Assembly: GCF_025758695.1 (NCBI RefSeq)
Contig: NZ_JANJQP010000002.1
Location: 310,001 to 374,000 of the forward strand
Reading direction: 5' to 3'
DNA length: 64,000 nt
Source: Oenococcus kitaharae
GTDB lineage: Bacteria; Bacillota; Bacilli; Lactobacillales; Lactobacillaceae
Within the stretch, counting starts at the first letter, position 1. Every line of letters begins with the position of its first letter. A program made the position numbers and the translations under genes. The notes below the pieces were generated by a model. It worked only from the letters and a program-made list of their open reading frames with translations, was not told where the DNA came from and did no database searches. Positions 3,760-62,130 of the stretch are shown piece after piece.

Positions 3760-4098
3760 AAAACTCTCCTAAACTTTTTTGCTAAATCTTCACACTAATA
3801 GCGTTTTGTCCAAAAATATTCGGATTACCACCCTAAACGCGTTACCAATTAGCTTAAATGTAGAATAGCCCAAAAATACACGAACGTTATTTTTTTTATC
3901 TTTTTTTCAAAAAATATCAGTCTTCTTGCAAAATTAAAAAAAGTACTGCCAACCGTTGTTACAGACCGATTATTTGTTAGCAAGAAAAATGTCTGATCGA
4001 ATCTTGTTATGGCTAAAAGCTTGAAAAGATAGATGTAAAAGCTTTGACAATTCTAAAAAGTTCGGAAAAAGCCATTGCAGAATATTAAAATATTCTTA
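3760..4098. other. Intergenic region with candidate regulatory sites
   Basis: This 339-base A/T-rich gap separates the divergent nucleoside importer and the metallophosphatase. Read on the minus strand it contains TAATCCGAATATT (3815-3827) and a CGTTCG-containing element (3880-3886), both resembling PurR-type PurBox cores (CCGAAC/CGAAC). That would suit a nucleoside importer, but each has a mismatch. A perfect inverted repeat GAATATT-AA-AATATTC lies at 4080-4095, immediately before the metallophosphatase start. I see no small gene or RNA here. Confidence 0.3.
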
Positions 4099-4932
4099 AT
4101 GAATAAATTTGAAAGGCATAACGAACTCGACAAAACAATTTTAGTCTCTGATATTCACGAAAATTGGCAGGCATTAAGAAAAATTACCCAGCTGCCGGAA
4201 TTTGGCCAGGACGGTTATACGCTGATTTTTTTAGGTGATTACACTGATAGCAATGGCAATAATTTACACGAACCAATCAAGGTGATTGATTTTATTATGG
4301 ATCAGGTTGAACATCATGGCGCGCTGGCCATTCACGGCAATCACGACGATATGTTGTATGGTACGGCCATTGGGGATTCGGATAAGTTTTTTAATTGGGG
4401 CAGGAATGGTATTTTAGGCAGTCAGAAACGTCTCGGACTAACACCAAATGATATTAATATCGAGCTGACAAAAGAAGAGCTGAACGAAAAGTACGCCCAT
4501 TATATTGATTTTTTGGATAGGATTCCTTATGGTATCGAAGACCAGCAGCGTTTGTTTGTCCATGCGGGCCTGGATTGGAGCAAACAGGATTACCATGATA
4601 CTGCTATTGAAGATTTGATCTGGATTCGCGAACCCTATATTTTCAGCAGCGGCATGAAGGCGTATTTGGAAGACCCTAAGAAAAGAGGGGCGATTGATTC
4701 TGTTTGGCATCGTAATCAGACGGACAAAGTGATTGTGACGGGGCATACACCGACTTTTCTGCTGACTGGCAATAGCCGCAACCCGATTGCAGCCATGCAG
4801 CATGATGCAAGTGATCGTGTTCGGTATGACATTGACGGCGGATCGCATTCTGCTTCAATAGAGGCAGCGTTGAATGTTTTGATTTTGGATAAAGATGGTA
4901 GTGAAATCCGTCGGACGCGTTTGCTTGCTTAA
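4099..4932 (+). CDS. Metallophosphoesterase (calcineurin-like, Ser/Thr phosphatase type)
   Basis: Probable di-metal phosphoesterase of 277 residues. The metal-binding signatures appear in order: DIHENW (D-x-H), GDYTDSNGN (G-D-x-x-D), GNHDD (G-N-H-D), then VHAGLDW and GHTPT. This is the layout of the PPP/ApaH-like group that cleaves phosphoproteins or dinucleoside polyphosphates; the substrate is unknown. An in-frame TTG lies 24 bases upstream (4075), but neither start has a clear Shine-Dalgarno sequence. I favour the ATG at 4099 because TAAAAT (4086-4091) ends exactly 7 bases before it, like several other genes here. It is a single gene, followed by the metal-resistance pair. Confidence 0.82.
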   Translation: MNKFERHNELDKTILVSDIHENWQALRKITQLPEFGQDGYTLIFLGDYTDSNGNNLHEPIKVIDFIMDQVEHHGALAIHGNHDDMLYGTAIGDSDKFFNWGRNGILGSQKRLGLTPNDINIELTKEELNEKYAHYIDFLDRIPYGIEDQQRLFVHAGLDWSKQDYHDTAIEDLIWIREPYIFSSGMKAYLEDPKKRGAIDSVWHRNQTDKVIVTGHTPTFLLTGNSRNPIAAMQHDASDRVRYDIDGGSHSASIEAALNVLILDKDGSEIRRTRLLA

Positions 4933-5024: not shown

Positions 5025-5621
5025 ATGTTGACAGTTTTATCAGGTGCTTTTCTGTCTTATTTCGGGACGACTTCAGATTACTTTGTCATGTTGTTGGCAA
5101 TTTTTGGGAAACATAAAAAAAGCCGCTGCCACCGCCGGATTTTCATCGGTGAATTGATCGGCAACGGTATTTTGATAGCGGTTAGTTTGTTGATGGCTTA
5201 TCTGTTGAAGTTTATTCCGGAAAGCTGGATTTTAGGTTTGCTGGGGTTGTTTCCAATTGCTGTCGGTCTGAAGACTTTCTTCTCCAAAGAAGACGAAGCT
5301 GCCAAAGCCAAGGCCTCCGATGCGCATTTGATTCGTGATGTTGTGCTGATGACGCTGACCACCTGCAGCGCTGACAATCTTGCGATTTACGTTCCCTTTT
5401 TTTCCAGTGTCAGTTTTAGTTATCTGCCGATGATCTTGATTGTCTTTTTGCTCGTGTTGTCGATTGTTTCTTTAACTGCCTTGAAAATGACGAAGTTTCC
5501 ACTGATTCGCGGCTTTTTGAATCGCTATGCAGATCTTTTCCAGCTGGTTGTTTATGTGTTTCTCGGTGTCATGATCATGTGGGAATCAGGGACGATGCGG
5601 CATTTGCTGTCAATGCTTTAA
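5025..5621 (+). CDS. cadD: CadD-family heavy-metal (cadmium) resistance transporter
   Basis: Integral membrane protein of 198 residues with about five or six hydrophobic segments, a polar central loop (residues ~85-105, rich in K, E and A) and the N-terminal pattern LSGAFLSYFGTTSDYFVMLL. These match the CadD/cadmium-resistance transporter family, distant relatives of LysE exporters. It would export divalent metal (Cd, possibly Zn) from the cytoplasm. AGAGGCG precedes the ATG. It is followed after 9 bases by an ArsR-type regulator and preceded by operator-like dyads, the classic self-regulated resistance pair. The cation exported is uncertain because the regulator's visible metal site is of the zinc/cobalt type. 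Confidence 0.78.
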   Translation: MLTVLSGAFLSYFGTTSDYFVMLLAIFGKHKKSRCHRRIFIGELIGNGILIAVSLLMAYLLKFIPESWILGLLGLFPIAVGLKTFFSKEDEAAKAKASDAHLIRDVVLMTLTTCSADNLAIYVPFFSSVSFSYLPMILIVFLLVLSIVSLTALKMTKFPLIRGFLNRYADLFQLVVYVFLGVMIMWESGTMRHLLSML

Positions 5622-5630
5622 AATAGAGGT

Positions 5631-5996
5631 ATGTCCGAAAGTTTAAAATTGATCCACCAGGCCAAACTGGATGAAGCGGCTAAAATCGCCAAGGTGCTGG
5701 CTAGTCCAACGCGAATCCAGATTTTGAATCTGCTAGAGCAGGATCGTTTGAATGTGGGCGAACTGGTTTCGGCTTTAGGATCGGAGCAGTCAACAGTTTC
5801 CCATCAGCTGCAAAAACTACGTGCCTATCAATTAATCAGTCAAGAACGGATCGGAAAATCTGTCTATTACGAATTGGATGACCCGCATATTGTCGACACA
5901 CTCAATCAGCTTTTGGGTCACGTTGACCATTTGTTGTTAGGCGAGGACCATGCTGGTAAACATGTTTCGGACTGTTTTGACATCAACAAAGATTAA
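5631..5996 (+). CDS. ArsR/SmtB-family metal sensor repressor, CzrA-like
   Basis: Winged-helix repressor of 121 residues. The core has LASPTRIQILNLL, the recognition-helix region SEQSTVSHQLQKLR, and a wing around ERIGKSVYYEL. The last long helix carries D84, H86, H97 and H100, exactly the spacing (and by chance the numbering) of the alpha-5 Zn(II)/Co(II) site of Staphylococcus aureus CzrA. The cysteine motif of the alpha-3N site of CadC/ArsR (ELCVCD) is absent; the equivalent segment reads GELVSAL. Metal binding is expected to release DNA and derepress the upstream exporter. TAAAAT ends 6 bases before the ATG, so a short-leader transcript of its own is possible besides read-through from cadD. 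Confidence 0.9.
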   Translation: MSESLKLIHQAKLDEAAKIAKVLASPTRIQILNLLEQDRLNVGELVSALGSEQSTVSHQLQKLRAYQLISQERIGKSVYYELDDPHIVDTLNQLLGHVDHLLLGEDHAGKHVSDCFDINKD

Positions 5997-15489: not shown

Positions 15490-16224
15490 TTAAAAACTTT
15501 CAGTTGGGATCGCGGCTAATTTGCCTTGCCAATCAATCTCTGGATAGCGTTTTGACAGCGCGTTTTTCAGGATGCGCTTGGCTAAATTACCATTACGCGT
15601 CAGAATCGGCCCGTGAAAATAGGTGCCGTAGACTTGTCTATAAATTACGCCCTCTGTCTGGTCATCGCCGTTATTGCCGTTGCCGGAAATAACATGACCC
15701 AGAGCTTTTTCGCCCTCGCCCAAAAAAGTACGGCCCTGATGGTTTTCAAAACCATGATAGGTTTCGCCGTTTTCGTTATTTTTAATTTCGATATTGCCGA
15801 TTAGGCGTTTGCCGCGCATACCATCTTTTAATTCAGGCGAATTGAGATTAACAGTATGATGCGACATGACGCCGATACCGTTGATGACTTTGCCATCCGC
15901 AAATTCCATGGTCCGGCCTAATAATTGGAAACCACCGCAAACAGCCAATAATGATCCGCCTTGTTCGATATAAGCTTTGATTTCCGCTGATTTGCCCGGC
16001 AGGTCTTTAGCGGTCACGGATTCTTCGTAGTCTTGACCGCCGCCAAAAAGCACGAAATCATAATCGTCAGCCTTAAATGTGTCATGGAGCGAAACGAGAT
16101 GATAATCGACGGTCACACCAATTTGTTTAGCATAGTAAGTCAAAGCGATCACATTGCCGTAATCGCCGTATGTATTCATCAAATCACCATATAAATGTGC
16201 AATTCGAAGCTTATAAGCTGTCAT
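15490..16224 (-). CDS. gatD: Lipid II isoglutaminyl synthase, glutaminase subunit GatD
   Basis: Glutamine amidotransferase of 244 residues that supplies ammonia to MurT for amidating the alpha-carboxyl of D-Glu in lipid II. The nucleophile Cys96 lies in LLAVCGGFQLLG and the catalytic His204 in GTYFHGPILTRN, the CobB/CobQ-like arrangement of GatD (Cys94/His189 in S. aureus). Its start codon shares one base with the murT stop (TAATG), so the pair is translationally coupled. Amidation is usually needed for efficient cross-linking and for lysozyme resistance. Confidence 0.93.
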   Translation of the reverse strand: MTAYKLRIAHLYGDLMNTYGDYGNVIALTYYAKQIGVTVDYHLVSLHDTFKADDYDFVLFGGGQDYEESVTAKDLPGKSAEIKAYIEQGGSLLAVCGGFQLLGRTMEFADGKVINGIGVMSHHTVNLNSPELKDGMRGKRLIGNIEIKNNENGETYHGFENHQGRTFLGEGEKALGHVISGNGNNGDDQTEGVIYRQVYGTYFHGPILTRNGNLAKRILKNALSKRYPEIDWQGKLAAIPTESF

Positions 16225-17585
16225 TAAAAACTCCCTTTTGCCAAGCCGGCTTTGGTTAATTCTGCTCGGAACATGAGCATGCTCGTATATGTTGCGGCTA
16301 CGTAAGCATTTTTCGTTGGCAGGGCTTTAATGCGGTCAATCAGTTTGCCAAAATCCTGTTCGACAATTTGGTCGGGGAAACCGGCCATTTTCAAACGGAC
16401 GCTAAAATCTTGATAACGCTGGCCGCCAACGATAATTTTAGCCAGTTTTGTCTCATGGAGACGTTCGAATTCCGCGTCAAAAATCCAGCTGGTATCAATC
16501 CCATCAGCGTAATTAGCGTTTAGCAGCGTAACGAGGCTGAAGGGCTGGGGATCGCTGATCATCATGTCGATGACGCTGTTAGCACCGACGGGATTTTTAA
16601 TCAGCACAATCGTGACAAGGTGGTCGCCGATGTGCAGCTGTTCTTGACGGCCGAAGATACGTGAGTCTTCATTAAGCGCAGCGAAAATTTGATCAGCGCA
16701 CAACCCGAATTCACGGCCCAAAGCATAAGCAGCCAGCGCGTTATAAATATTGTAGAGACCGCCTAAAGGCAGTGTGAAAGCATGCTGATCAATTTCAAAA
16801 TCAGATTTAGCTGGCGTTAGCGAATCGACTTTGGTGACGGCGTATTTCAGATCGGGCCGTTTGAAACTTTTATCAGGCGTAAAATAGCTGCCCAAATTGG
16901 CGTAAGTCAAATAGTGGTAATGCAGTACCTGATCATCGGTCGGAGCCAAAATGCCGTCCGTGTTCGTTGGTGCGCGGTGGTCGCCAGTCTCGGGACGGTC
17001 GGCGAAACCAAAATAGACAACTGGATTGGGATAGGGTTTGCGTGCAAAAATCGGAGAATCACCGTTGGCAATCACTTCAGCTTTTGGGCTGCTATTGATA
17101 CCATCGGTGATTTTTTCATAAGTTGTATAAATTTCGCCATAGCGATCCATTTGGTCGCGAAAAATATTTGTCAAAACAAAATGACTGGCCTGCAGACTCT
17201 GAGCCGCTGCTTTGACGTTAGCTTCATCGACTTCTAAGACAGCGATTGGCTTTTGTCCCTGCCGATTAGCCTGACGGATTTGAGCAGCGTGGGCCATAAT
17301 TGTGGCGACGATACCTTGAATCATATTGGAACCGGATTTATTTGTAATAATCAAGCGGCCGCTTTGAGACAAGACACGCGCACAAAGGGCAGTTGTCAAC
17401 GTTTTACCATTTGTGCCTGTGATAATCACGGTCTGGATTTTGTTGGCAAATTCTTTTAAAATAGCTGGATCCAGCTGATAAGCGATTTTGCCGGGGAGCG
17501 AGGTACCGCCGCGATGAAGAATTTTATGTAATAGTATGTAGCTTGTCGATCCGGCAAACAAGGCGAATTTGCTTCTAATAGTCAT
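16224..17585 (-). CDS. murT: Lipid II isoglutaminyl synthase, Mur-ligase subunit MurT
   Basis: Mur-ligase-like ATPase of 453 residues forming D-isoglutamine in lipid II with GatD. It has the P-loop TGTNGKT, the segment VLEVDEANV, NIFRDQMDRYGE and a C-terminal MurT domain. In staphylococcal MurT the middle domain holds a Cys4 zinc ribbon with spacing C-x2-C-x18-C-x2-C. Here the equivalent positions, in the same spacing, are Ala214, Asp217, Thr236 and Lys239, so zinc cannot be bound there, although flanking residues (LHYHYLTYANLGSY, FKRPDLKY) remain. I start at 17585 (MTIRSKF). There is no Shine-Dalgarno sequence, but TATAAT ends 6 bases upstream, suggesting a leaderless message divergent from tdk. 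Confidence 0.93.
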   Translation of the reverse strand: MTIRSKFALFAGSTSYILLHKILHRGGTSLPGKIAYQLDPAILKEFANKIQTVIITGTNGKTLTTALCARVLSQSGRLIITNKSGSNMIQGIVATIMAHAAQIRQANRQGQKPIAVLEVDEANVKAAAQSLQASHFVLTNIFRDQMDRYGEIYTTYEKITDGINSSPKAEVIANGDSPIFARKPYPNPVVYFGFADRPETGDHRAPTNTDGILAPTDDQVLHYHYLTYANLGSYFTPDKSFKRPDLKYAVTKVDSLTPAKSDFEIDQHAFTLPLGGLYNIYNALAAYALGREFGLCADQIFAALNEDSRIFGRQEQLHIGDHLVTIVLIKNPVGANSVIDMMISDPQPFSLVTLLNANYADGIDTSWIFDAEFERLHETKLAKIIVGGQRYQDFSVRLKMAGFPDQIVEQDFGKLIDRIKALPTKNAYVAATYTSMLMFRAELTKAGLAKGSF

Positions 17586-17591
17586 AAACAA

Positions 17592-17626
17592 ATTATAGAC
17601 TAGCATAAAAATATCACTGATATAAT
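17592..17626. promoter_or_regulatory. Divergent -10 elements of murT and tdk, both 6-7 nt from their start codons
   Basis: On the minus strand TATAAT spans 17597-17592, six bases before the murT ATG. On the plus strand TGATATAAT (extended -10 TGn plus TATAAT at 17621-17626) ends seven bases before the tdk ATG. With normal initiation 6-8 bases after the -10 box, both transcripts would begin at or next to the A of ATG. Only weak -35 sequences are seen. Confidence 0.55.
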
Positions 17627-17633
17627 TGGAAAC

Positions 17634-18248
17634 ATGACACAGCTATTTTTTGAATATGGTGCTATGGGATCCGGCAAGACAATCGAAATCCTGAAGGTAG
17701 CACATAACTATGAATCACAAGGCAAGAAGGTCCTACTGATGACGCCCGATGTTGACGACCGGGCTGGTGTCGGCATTATTGCCAGCCGTATTGGCTTAAA
17801 ACGCGAAGCGATTGCGATTCATAAAAAAGACAATCTCTTTGACGAAGTAGCTAAGAACACGGAGGCAATTTCTGCTGTTTTGATTGATGAAGCCCAGTTT
17901 TTAAGCGCTGCGCAGGTTGATCAACTGGCAGAAGTTGTTGACGATTTGAATATTCCTGTCATGACTTTCGGCTTGCGTCAGGATGCTTTTAATCATCTCT
18001 TTCCTGGTTCCCAACGGCTTTTTGAAATCGCAGATAAATTAGAAGAGATGAAAACGATTTGTACCTTCTGCGGCAAAAAAGCCATTACACAATTGCGTAT
18101 TGTTAATGGCAAACCACAGTATGCCGGTGACCAAGTTTTCATTGGTGGAGATGAGGCTTACGTGCCTGTCTGCCGCAAGCATTGGCATCATCCTGATAAA
18201 AAGCGCCTTGCAGAGCTATTTCCTCAAAAAGATCAGCCTGCTGACTAA
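17634..18248 (+). CDS. tdk: Thymidine kinase
   Basis: Cytoplasmic salvage enzyme phosphorylating thymidine, 204 residues. It has the P-loop YGAMGSGKT, the DEAQF segment (VLIDEAQFL), a CTFCGKKA half of the zinc-binding lasso and the substrate-binding YVPVCRKHW region. A perfect TATAAT with an upstream TG dinucleotide ends seven bases before the ATG; TGGAAAC between them gives at most a weak ribosome-binding site. It is divergent from murT; downstream is an unrelated membrane protein. Confidence 0.95.
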   Translation: MTQLFFEYGAMGSGKTIEILKVAHNYESQGKKVLLMTPDVDDRAGVGIIASRIGLKREAIAIHKKDNLFDEVAKNTEAISAVLIDEAQFLSAAQVDQLAEVVDDLNIPVMTFGLRQDAFNHLFPGSQRLFEIADKLEEMKTICTFCGKKAITQLRIVNGKPQYAGDQVFIGGDEAYVPVCRKHWHHPDKKRLAELFPQKDQPAD

Positions 18249-30678: not shown

Positions 30679-30739
30679 TTATTGGATAAGGAAATGTTGT
30701 GACTGAAATTTTTAAAAGCGAGCACGTATACTAGAAGAG

Positions 30740-31813: not shown

Positions 31814-31827
31814 CTATAATAGGGAAC

Positions 31828-49047: not shown

Positions 49048-49104
49048 ATAAATTAATTTTATCGTATTTATAAATTTTGACTATGCGTGATGCACAAGTT
49101 TATG
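49048..49104 (+). promoter_or_regulatory. mleR-mleA divergent control region
   Basis: The palindrome ATAAATTAATTTTAT (49048-49062), containing a LysR-type T-N11-A, abuts the mleR start and could be the MleR box. TTGACT (49077-49082) with TTTATG 16 bases later (49099-49104) is a modest promoter for mleA. TGCGTGATGCA in between is a second small dyad. Confidence 0.45.
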
Positions 49105-49130: not shown

Positions 49131-50756
49131 ATGACAGATCCAGTAAGCATTTTAAACGACCCTTTTACAAATAAGGGCACGGCTTTTACGGAAGCTGAAC
49201 GTAAAGAACTCGGTTTGAACGGACTGCTGCCAGCCAAAATTCAGAGTTTGCAGCAGCAAGTTGACCAGACTTACGCACAATTTCAAAGTAAAGAGACTAA
49301 TTTAGAAAAACGCCTCTTTTTAATGGAAATCTTCAACACGAATCATGTGCTATTTTATAAACTATTTTCTCTGCACGTGGTTGAATTCATGCCGATCGTC
49401 TATGACCCGACGATCGCCGATTCAGTCGAAAATTATTCCAGTCTTTTTGTGCAAACACAAGGCGCTGCTTTTCTGGACATCATGCATCCGGAAAATATTC
49501 AAGATAGCTTAAAGCACGCTGCTAACGGCCGTGATATCAAGCTTTTGGTCGTGACGGACGCTGAAGGTATTTTAGGTATCGGCGATTGGGGCGTCCAAGG
49601 TGTCGATATCGCTGTCGGAAAATTGATGGTCTATACAGCTGCTGCCGGCATTGACCCGGCAACCGTGCTGCCAGTTGTGATTGACGCTGGCACGAACAAT
49701 GAAAAACTGTTAAACGATCCTTTATATTTGGGCAATCGTTTCAAACGTGTACGCGGGCAAAAATATAGTGATTTTATTGATCACTTTGTGGATCAGGCTG
49801 AAACACTTTTCCCGAATCTCTACCTGCACTGGGAAGATTTCGGTCGTTCCAATGCAGCTGAGATTTTAAATAAATATGAAGACAAGATCGCCACTTTCAA
49901 TGATGATATCCAGGGAACTGGTATCGTCGTCTTAGCCGGCGTTTTAGGTGCTTTAAAAATTTCCGGCGAAAAGCTGACGGATCAGACTTACATGAGTTTT
50001 GGTGCCGGAACTGCCGGTATGGGAATTGTCAAGCAGCTGCATGAAGAAATGGTTCAAGAAGGTTTATCCGACGAGGAAGCCAAAAAGCATTTCTTCTTGG
50101 TTGACAAACAAGGCTTGCTCTTTGATGACGACAACACTTTGACTGCTGAACAAAAACCTTTCGCAGCGTCACGGGCAGATTTTGTCAATGCATCTGATTT
50201 AACCGATTTAGCTGCTGCTGTTAAGGTCATTCACCCGACGATTTTGGTTGGAACTTCAACGCAGCCGGGTGCTTTCACAGAAGAAGTCGTTAAGGAAATG
50301 GCTAAAAACACAGCTCGTCCGATTATTTTCCCCATTTCTAATCCGACAAAATTAGCCGAAGCCAAAGCCGAGGATATTTTGAAATGGACCGATGGCCAAG
50401 CTTTGATCGGGACCGGCGTGCCTGTTGCCGACATCAGTTTTAAAGGTCAAACCTATCAAATCGGCCAGGCGAATAATGCCTTGATTTATCCAGGACTGGG
50501 TCTAGGCGCGATTGCTGCACAAGCCAAATTGTTAACGCCGGAAATGATTTCAGCCGCTGCTCATAGTTTGGGCGGCATTGTTGATACTAGCAAGGTTGGT
50601 GCCGCTGTCTTGCCACCAGTTGCTAAGCTGGCTGAATTCTCGCGCACCCTGGCGATTGCTGTAGCTAAAAAAGCCGTTGAACAAGGATTAAACCGAGAGC
50701 CGATTGCAGACGTTAATAAGGCCGTTGATGATTTGAAGTGGGAGCCTGAATACTAA
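49131..50756 (+). CDS. mleA: Malolactic enzyme
   Basis: NAD- and Mn-dependent enzyme converting L-malate directly to L-lactate and CO2. The 541 residues match the Oenococcus enzyme length. Segments [41 protein letters not shown] and [13 protein letters not shown] are malic/malolactic hallmarks (metal and NAD sites). GGAGAG precedes the ATG. The reading frame is complete, so malolactic fermentation should work. Its stop shares a base with the mleP start (TAATG). Confidence 0.97.
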
Positions 50757-52279: not shown

Positions 52280-52456
52280 GGCTTACGTTCACAGCCGCTT
52301 AAAAGTATTGTTTTTTGATCATTGTTTTTCTAACTAGTGCAGGAATGCTCATGAATTCAATTCGGCCGCAGCCAACTATTTTCAATCACACGAATAAATA
52401 AATAGAATTGAATGCGCTTCGATGTTCGAATTGACAGAGATAGGTAAAATAGAATT

Positions 52457-57294: not shown

Positions 57295-57317
57295 CCTTTT
57301 TCTTTTATACTGGAAAC

Positions 57318-62076: not shown

Positions 62077-62130
62077 GAACAAATGCTAACACGAAATCCG
62101 CCTTTCTGCTATTATGACCGCAGAGGTTAT

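Follow-up and report, generated by a model that had tools for sequence, protein, structure and literature searches.

Around 8% of the genes of Oenococcus kitaharae, on the order of 100-150 genes, are very probably transcribed from sigma-70-type promoters that lack a -35 box and yield leaderless mRNAs, as judged from sequence. The basis for this is a peak of -10-like hexamers ending 6-8 nt before start codons, the conservation of these boxes, the lack of Shine-Dalgarno (SD) sequences, a start-codon bias, a pyrimidine at position -1 and the missing -35 box. In the proposed mechanism, recognition of a sigma-70-type promoter would depend on the -10 box and the bases right next to it, with no -35 box involved. 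Because the -10 box ends 6-8 nt before the start codon, RNA synthesis would begin at or near it, on its A (or G) or one or two bases before, and the mRNA, which would carry neither a 5' leader nor an SD sequence, would be translated by leaderless initiation at a 5'-terminal AUG or GUG. From these features we infer where the 5' ends lie, which sigma factor acts and how translation proceeds.

The window analysed was a stretch of 64,000 nucleotides (G000:C2:310001-374000) of this 1.75 Mb genome. The initial annotation of the window had listed ten -10-like hexamers close to start codons, interpreted them as the promoters of a set of leaderless mRNAs, and named beforehand a check for a peak at 6-8 nt against shuffled upstream sequence. 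All ten hexamers (10/10) were found at the distances given there. For the check, genes were called by a hexamer coding model in 464 kb of G000 (400 kb of contig 1 plus the window), and ten -10-like hexamers were counted at each distance from all start codons compatible with the model, these start codons being simple coding-model calls and not proteomics data. For 450 genes, the counts at spacers 0-10 were 5, 3, 4, 3, 5, 3, 22, 19, 8, 4 and 4, with a background of 4.0 per position. In 49/450 genes such a hexamer ended 6-8 nt before an ATG, while 12 were expected (Poisson P = 1e-15); since chance supplies about 12 of these 49 matches, some single genes will be false. Dinucleotide shuffles gave 8.9 ± 2.5 and local shuffles 10.9 ± 3.4, with a maximum of 19, so that the check named beforehand returned a strong peak (49 vs 9-11) and the suspected excess over chance was real. 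The peak was unchanged when starts were left uncorrected. In an unsupervised count, the 25 hexamers most enriched at 6-8 nt included a single non-SD one, TATAAT (38 vs 6.2 expected). A genome-wide count of TATAAT-N6-ATG (23 vs 19 for the reversed pattern) showed little difference and is uninformative because most ATGs are not starts.

Sixteen other genomes were sampled in stretches of roughly 40-480 kb each, and orthologous sites in relatives are not independent. The congeners compared with G000 were G005, its nearest relative among the genomes compared (97% tdk identity), and G003, G006 and G002 (O. oeni DSM 20252). The peak was found in all five Oenococcus genomes sampled (5/5), with 135 matches observed and 37 expected when pooled (P = 5e-35). 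It was seen at divergent gene pairs (58 vs 13 expected), where read-through from an upstream gene is impossible, and also at operon-internal positions with a gap under 30 nt (38 vs 6 expected). No excess was found in the twelve non-Oenococcus genomes pooled (38 vs 41 expected): the two named Leuconostoc species were at background level (3 and 3 vs 6.2 and 4.6 expected), nine other genomes of the family and order showed no overall excess, and Fructobacillus ficulneus showed a weak one (8 vs 3.2 expected, P = 0.02; shuffle maximum 6).

The boxes at 6-8 nt are also under selection, as expected of "TA-led" genes. In the diverged congener G003 they were kept in 32/35 cases, compared with 32/102 for boxes at other spacings (P = 3e-10), and in G006 in 23/28 cases compared with 26/86 (P = 2e-6), the level at other spacings being about 31%. 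In O. oeni G002, 7/8 were kept. The identity profile gave 97% for the hexamer, a value inflated by the choice of sites with a box in both genomes, 76% for the six bases before the box, about 59% for the discriminator and about 51% for the -35 region, which is the background level.

Several signatures at the start codon point in the same direction. An SD sequence was nearly absent from starts with a box at 6-8 nt (1/135), compared with 12/110 for the same hexamers at neighbouring spacings (P = 7e-4), a control that allows for the box occupying the place of the SD sequence. The expected enrichment of boxes among genes without an SD sequence was therefore confirmed, and together with the peak over shuffled sequence it supports the interpretation of a leaderless set. 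The statement that most genes here have an SD sequence is only roughly right, as the fraction was 42-60% depending on strictness, and many genes in the genome have neither an SD sequence nor a box. Sorted by start codon, the observed and expected numbers at the peak were 135/37 for ATG, 25/10 for GTG and 21/25 for TTG; ATG and GTG were enriched and TTG was not, as in TA-led genes. At spacer 6, the base at -1 was a pyrimidine in 48/52 cases, compared with 387/835 controls (46%; P = 1e-11), and in 19/22 cases in G000 alone (P = 0.0017). A pyrimidine at -1 followed by a purine at +1 is the usual initiator pattern of a transcription start, and the bias at spacer 6 fits a predicted +1 on the A of the ATG. 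The -1 base was unbiased at spacer 7 (22/41 pyrimidine), and at spacer 8 a pyrimidine was more often found at -2 (18/24), suggesting a 1-nt leader for the spacer-8 genes. Because the -1 signature is weaker at spacers 7 and 8, leaders of 1-2 nt are possible there. Outside Oenococcus, all spacer-6 matches had a pyrimidine before the ATG (16/16; background 53%), which makes a few genuinely leaderless genes probable in those genomes as well. The non-Oenococcus stretches with such matches include G013, G012, G007, G009, G020 and G021.

Poor -35 boxes had been listed as a weakness of the leaderless interpretation. They are indeed poor, but this is rather a property of the class. Conserved leadered -10 boxes, lying 15-80 nt from the start, had a mean best -35 match of 3.17 (3.53 for TATAAT/TATACT), whereas conserved leaderless boxes scored 2.42-2.60, compared with 2.54 for random hexamers. 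A TTGACA-like box 16-18 bp upstream of the -10, as in a classical sigma-70 promoter, was not enriched in the leaderless set, and neither was the TGn of an extended -10 (13% vs 16-24% in leadered sets). The evidence for a -10-only promoter class is good but not overwhelming, as the counts are small and the relatives not independent.

Of the ten boxes in the window, 8/10 recur at the same position in congeners, and the two remaining genes, arsR and hom, are not secure members of the set. The divergent genes murT and tdk have 48 bp between their start codons. The murT -10 box (TATAAT, 17592-17597, minus strand) lies 6 nt from ATG 17585 and is invariant in G005, G003, G006 and G002. The gene itself (16224-17585, minus strand), predicted to be leaderless, encodes a lipid II isoglutaminyl synthase subunit (NCBIfam MurT, 2.8e-146, below the curated cut-off). 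Its open frame reaches an upstream ATG at 17606; since this ATG is not kept in G003, G006 and G002, whereas ATG 17585 and its TATAAT are, 17585 was taken as the start. The tdk box (TATAAT, 17621-17626, plus strand) lies 7 nt from ATG 17634 and is invariant in the four congeners although its flanks have changed. It precedes the predicted leaderless thymidine kinase gene (17634-18248, plus strand; NCBIfam thymidine kinase, 3.6e-85). In the deep relative G001, tdk has TATACT 6 nt before its ATG, and most tdk orthologues from other genera carry an SD sequence, with the -10 lying farther away.

Four further boxes were located on the plus strand before genes predicted to be leaderless. These are the boxes of prfA (TATACT, 30727-30732, spacer 7 to ATG 30740), which is TATACT in G003 and TATTAT 6 nt before a GTG in G006 and G002; prmC (TATAAT, 31815-31820, spacer 7 to ATG 31828), present in all four congeners with differing discriminators in the three more distant ones; cysS (TAAAAT, 52445-52450, spacer 6 to ATG 52457; gene identity by TIGR00435, 1.4e-159), kept in 4/4 congeners; and tatD (TATACT, 57306-57311, spacer 6 to ATG 57318), likewise kept in 4/4. 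Another plus-strand box (TAAAAT, 4086-4091, spacer 7) precedes a metallophosphoesterase gene at 4099 (Pfam Metallophos, 4.5e-12); it is TAAAAT in G005 and G003 and TAAGAT in G006 and G002. On the minus strand, the predicted leaderless LysR-type regulator gene mleR has TAAAAT (49056-49061) with spacer 8 to ATG 49047, kept in 4/4 congeners. This gene is divergent from the malolactic enzyme gene (49131-50756; NF041582, 1.4e-291), which is intact, encodes 541 aa and has an SD sequence. The mleR upstream region AGTCAAAATTTATAAA is strongly conserved within the genus and is perhaps a binding site of the regulator itself. The two doubtful cases are TAAAAT (5619-5624, plus strand, spacer 6) before the ArsR-family gene at 5631 and TAGCAT (62083-62088, minus strand, spacer 6 to ATG 62076) before hom. 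The former is ambiguous, since the preceding gene (5025-5621) ends with the TAA of the box, and among the four congeners arsR orthologues were found in G005 and G003 only. The latter is only a weak TANNNT match (TAACAT in G006 and G002), and the hom start codon is uncertain, with an in-frame TTG at 62082. No Rfam families were found within the window.

The predicted leaderless set is enriched in genes for replication, repair, translation and the cell wall. Among its 38 conserved cases, GTG starts included, are PolC, DnaE, TopA, UvrC, RecU, XerD-like, ScpA, ArgS, CysS, Obg, an NFACT protein, PrfA, PrmC, peptide deformylase, YhbY, an RlmL-like methyltransferase, a YidC-like protein, PlsY, PlsC, MurT and Tdk. 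Some divergent loci are very compact. At recU/ypsA (G000:C1:364040-364063, L019) the start codons are 22 bp apart and the opposite -10 boxes overlap (ATTCTACAAT); the overlapping boxes are kept in G003, and the locus is a possible symmetric bidirectional leaderless promoter. A plsC-like gene and its divergent neighbour (G000:C1:245669-245690, L013) have start codons 20 bp apart and overlapping -10-like boxes, of which that of plsC is conserved and that of the neighbour not clearly so. Pairing of leaderless genes at divergent loci is suggestive only; with 6 double-leaderless pairs vs 2.8 expected, it is a lead and not a result.

Other explanations were weighed against this evidence. One is that the boxes are chance hexamers in A/T-rich DNA which the initial annotation happened to pick out; chance hexamers were a weakness that the annotation itself had raised. 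Chance does account for about 12 of the 49 matches in G000, but as a general account it is refuted by the peak, the shuffles and the conservation (91% vs 31%), and the peak is missing in Lactobacillales with equal or lower GC; its probability is now negligible. It could also be argued that operon-internal boxes are by-products of stop codons (TAA/TAG) near the next start, with translation achieved by coupling. Such overlap with an upstream stop was found in 12/76 same-strand matches at the peak, compared with 24/363 at distant spacings, and arsR is a case of this kind. However, most matches, including most boxes in the window, are clear of stop codons, and divergent genes show the peak as well, so this explanation is unlikely, even if some operon-internal boxes may owe their TA to a stop codon and the genes behind them may also be translated by coupling.

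The A/T-rich box might instead aid translation, by binding the ribosome without an SD sequence, by binding S1 or by keeping the start unstructured, with transcription starting further upstream. The hexamers without an accompanying -35 and the many genes with neither SD sequence nor box would agree with this. Against it, the motif matches the sigma-70 -10 consensus exactly, its T, A and T being fixed; it occurs at three spacings only, and the signature of a transcription initiator that accompanies it at -1 would be superfluous for a ribosome site. Moreover, replacing the corresponding motif in Deinococcus with a ribosome-binding site abolished expression and lowered the RNA (PMC12340547). We consider a purely translational role very improbable. 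A less remote, though still doubtful, alternative is that the promoters are real but leave very short leaders of 1-5 nt and are not strictly leaderless. The unbiased -1 base at spacer 7 and the pyrimidine at -2 at spacer 8, as if RNA started one base upstream, are in its favour. On the other hand, spacer 6 is the commonest class and its -1 pyrimidine fits a start on the A of the ATG, and a leader of 1-2 nt would behave as leaderless because it has no room for an SD sequence.

Leaderless mRNAs had been described as rarely reported in lactic acid bacteria, which makes the finding appear more novel than it is. Zheng et al. (2011) applied a motif model to 1,025 genomes and predicted leaderless genes, which they call TA-led, for two clades of this order, Oenococcus-Leuconostoc and Lactococcus-Streptococcus (PMC3160421). 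Those genes share with the present set the clade, a TATAAT-like box about 10 bp before the start and a bias to information-processing genes, and the main-text passages concerned name no Oenococcus genes. The present analysis goes beyond these passages with conservation at the level of orthologues, the absence of a -35 and the signature at -1. Whereas the prediction there was made for the clade, the excess found here is strong in Oenococcus and undetectable in the two Leuconostoc species, suggesting that Oenococcus carries most of the signal of the clade. In Streptococcus pneumoniae D39, which belongs to the same order, 70 leaderless operons have been mapped and a reporter was translated efficiently without a ribosome-binding site (PMC6212727); the evidence there is 5'-end mapping, and here it is prediction from sequence. 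No transcript-start mapping for Oenococcus was found in a literature search. The phenomenon is thus known, and was predicted for the clade in 2011; the leaderless genes of Oenococcus are a well-conserved example of it.

The closest architectural parallel is in Deinococcus-Thermus, where a -10 motif adjacent to the ORF, usually without a -35, is the promoter of leaderless genes, and the -10-only architecture has been demonstrated by mutagenesis in Deinococcus (PMC12340547). There, about a third of genes have a TANNNT motif (PMC12340547), while in Oenococcus about 8% of genes have a TATAAT/TAAAAT-like one, and the leadered promoters of the same Oenococcus genome do carry a -35. The leaderless state would mostly have been gained in Oenococcus through loss of leaders, as an SD sequence persists in most orthologues from other genera, and it would have been added to a few older cases such as xerD and uvrC. 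A leaderless-like xerD occurs in Leuconostoc carnosum and Fructobacillus as well as in Oenococcus, and a leaderless-like uvrC in G013 as well as in Oenococcus. The xerD-like gene and the aldose-epimerase gene that directly follows it (G000:C1:297419-299219, L015) are both leaderless-like, in Fructobacillus ficulneus too, and may be an ancestral leaderless pair. The idea that the leaderless genes were already SD-poor in relatives was not supported, with an SD score >=7 in 19/28 orthologues of leaderless genes vs 108/144 orthologues of other genes.

What may set Oenococcus apart, a reading to which we attach roughly even confidence, is the lineage-specific spread of a distinct, Deinococcus-like promoter class made up of a -10 only, with neither a -35 nor TGn. 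At core genes for replication, repair and translation, this promoter would be fused to the start codon in place of the SD-led start that most relatives from other genera retain, and in places divergent leaderless genes would be packed within 20-48 bp (recU/ypsA, murT/tdk). The analysis yields a concrete list of conserved, predicted leaderless genes for a lactic acid bacterium of industrial importance in wine and cider, and shows where in the family the leaderless state became common. As the change from SD-led to leaderless can be followed gene by gene between close genera, the evolution of leader loss becomes directly testable. Where a genome has few leaderless genes, a pyrimidine at -1 may help to pick out the true ones, and the annotation of start codons and promoters in Oenococcus should not presume an SD sequence.
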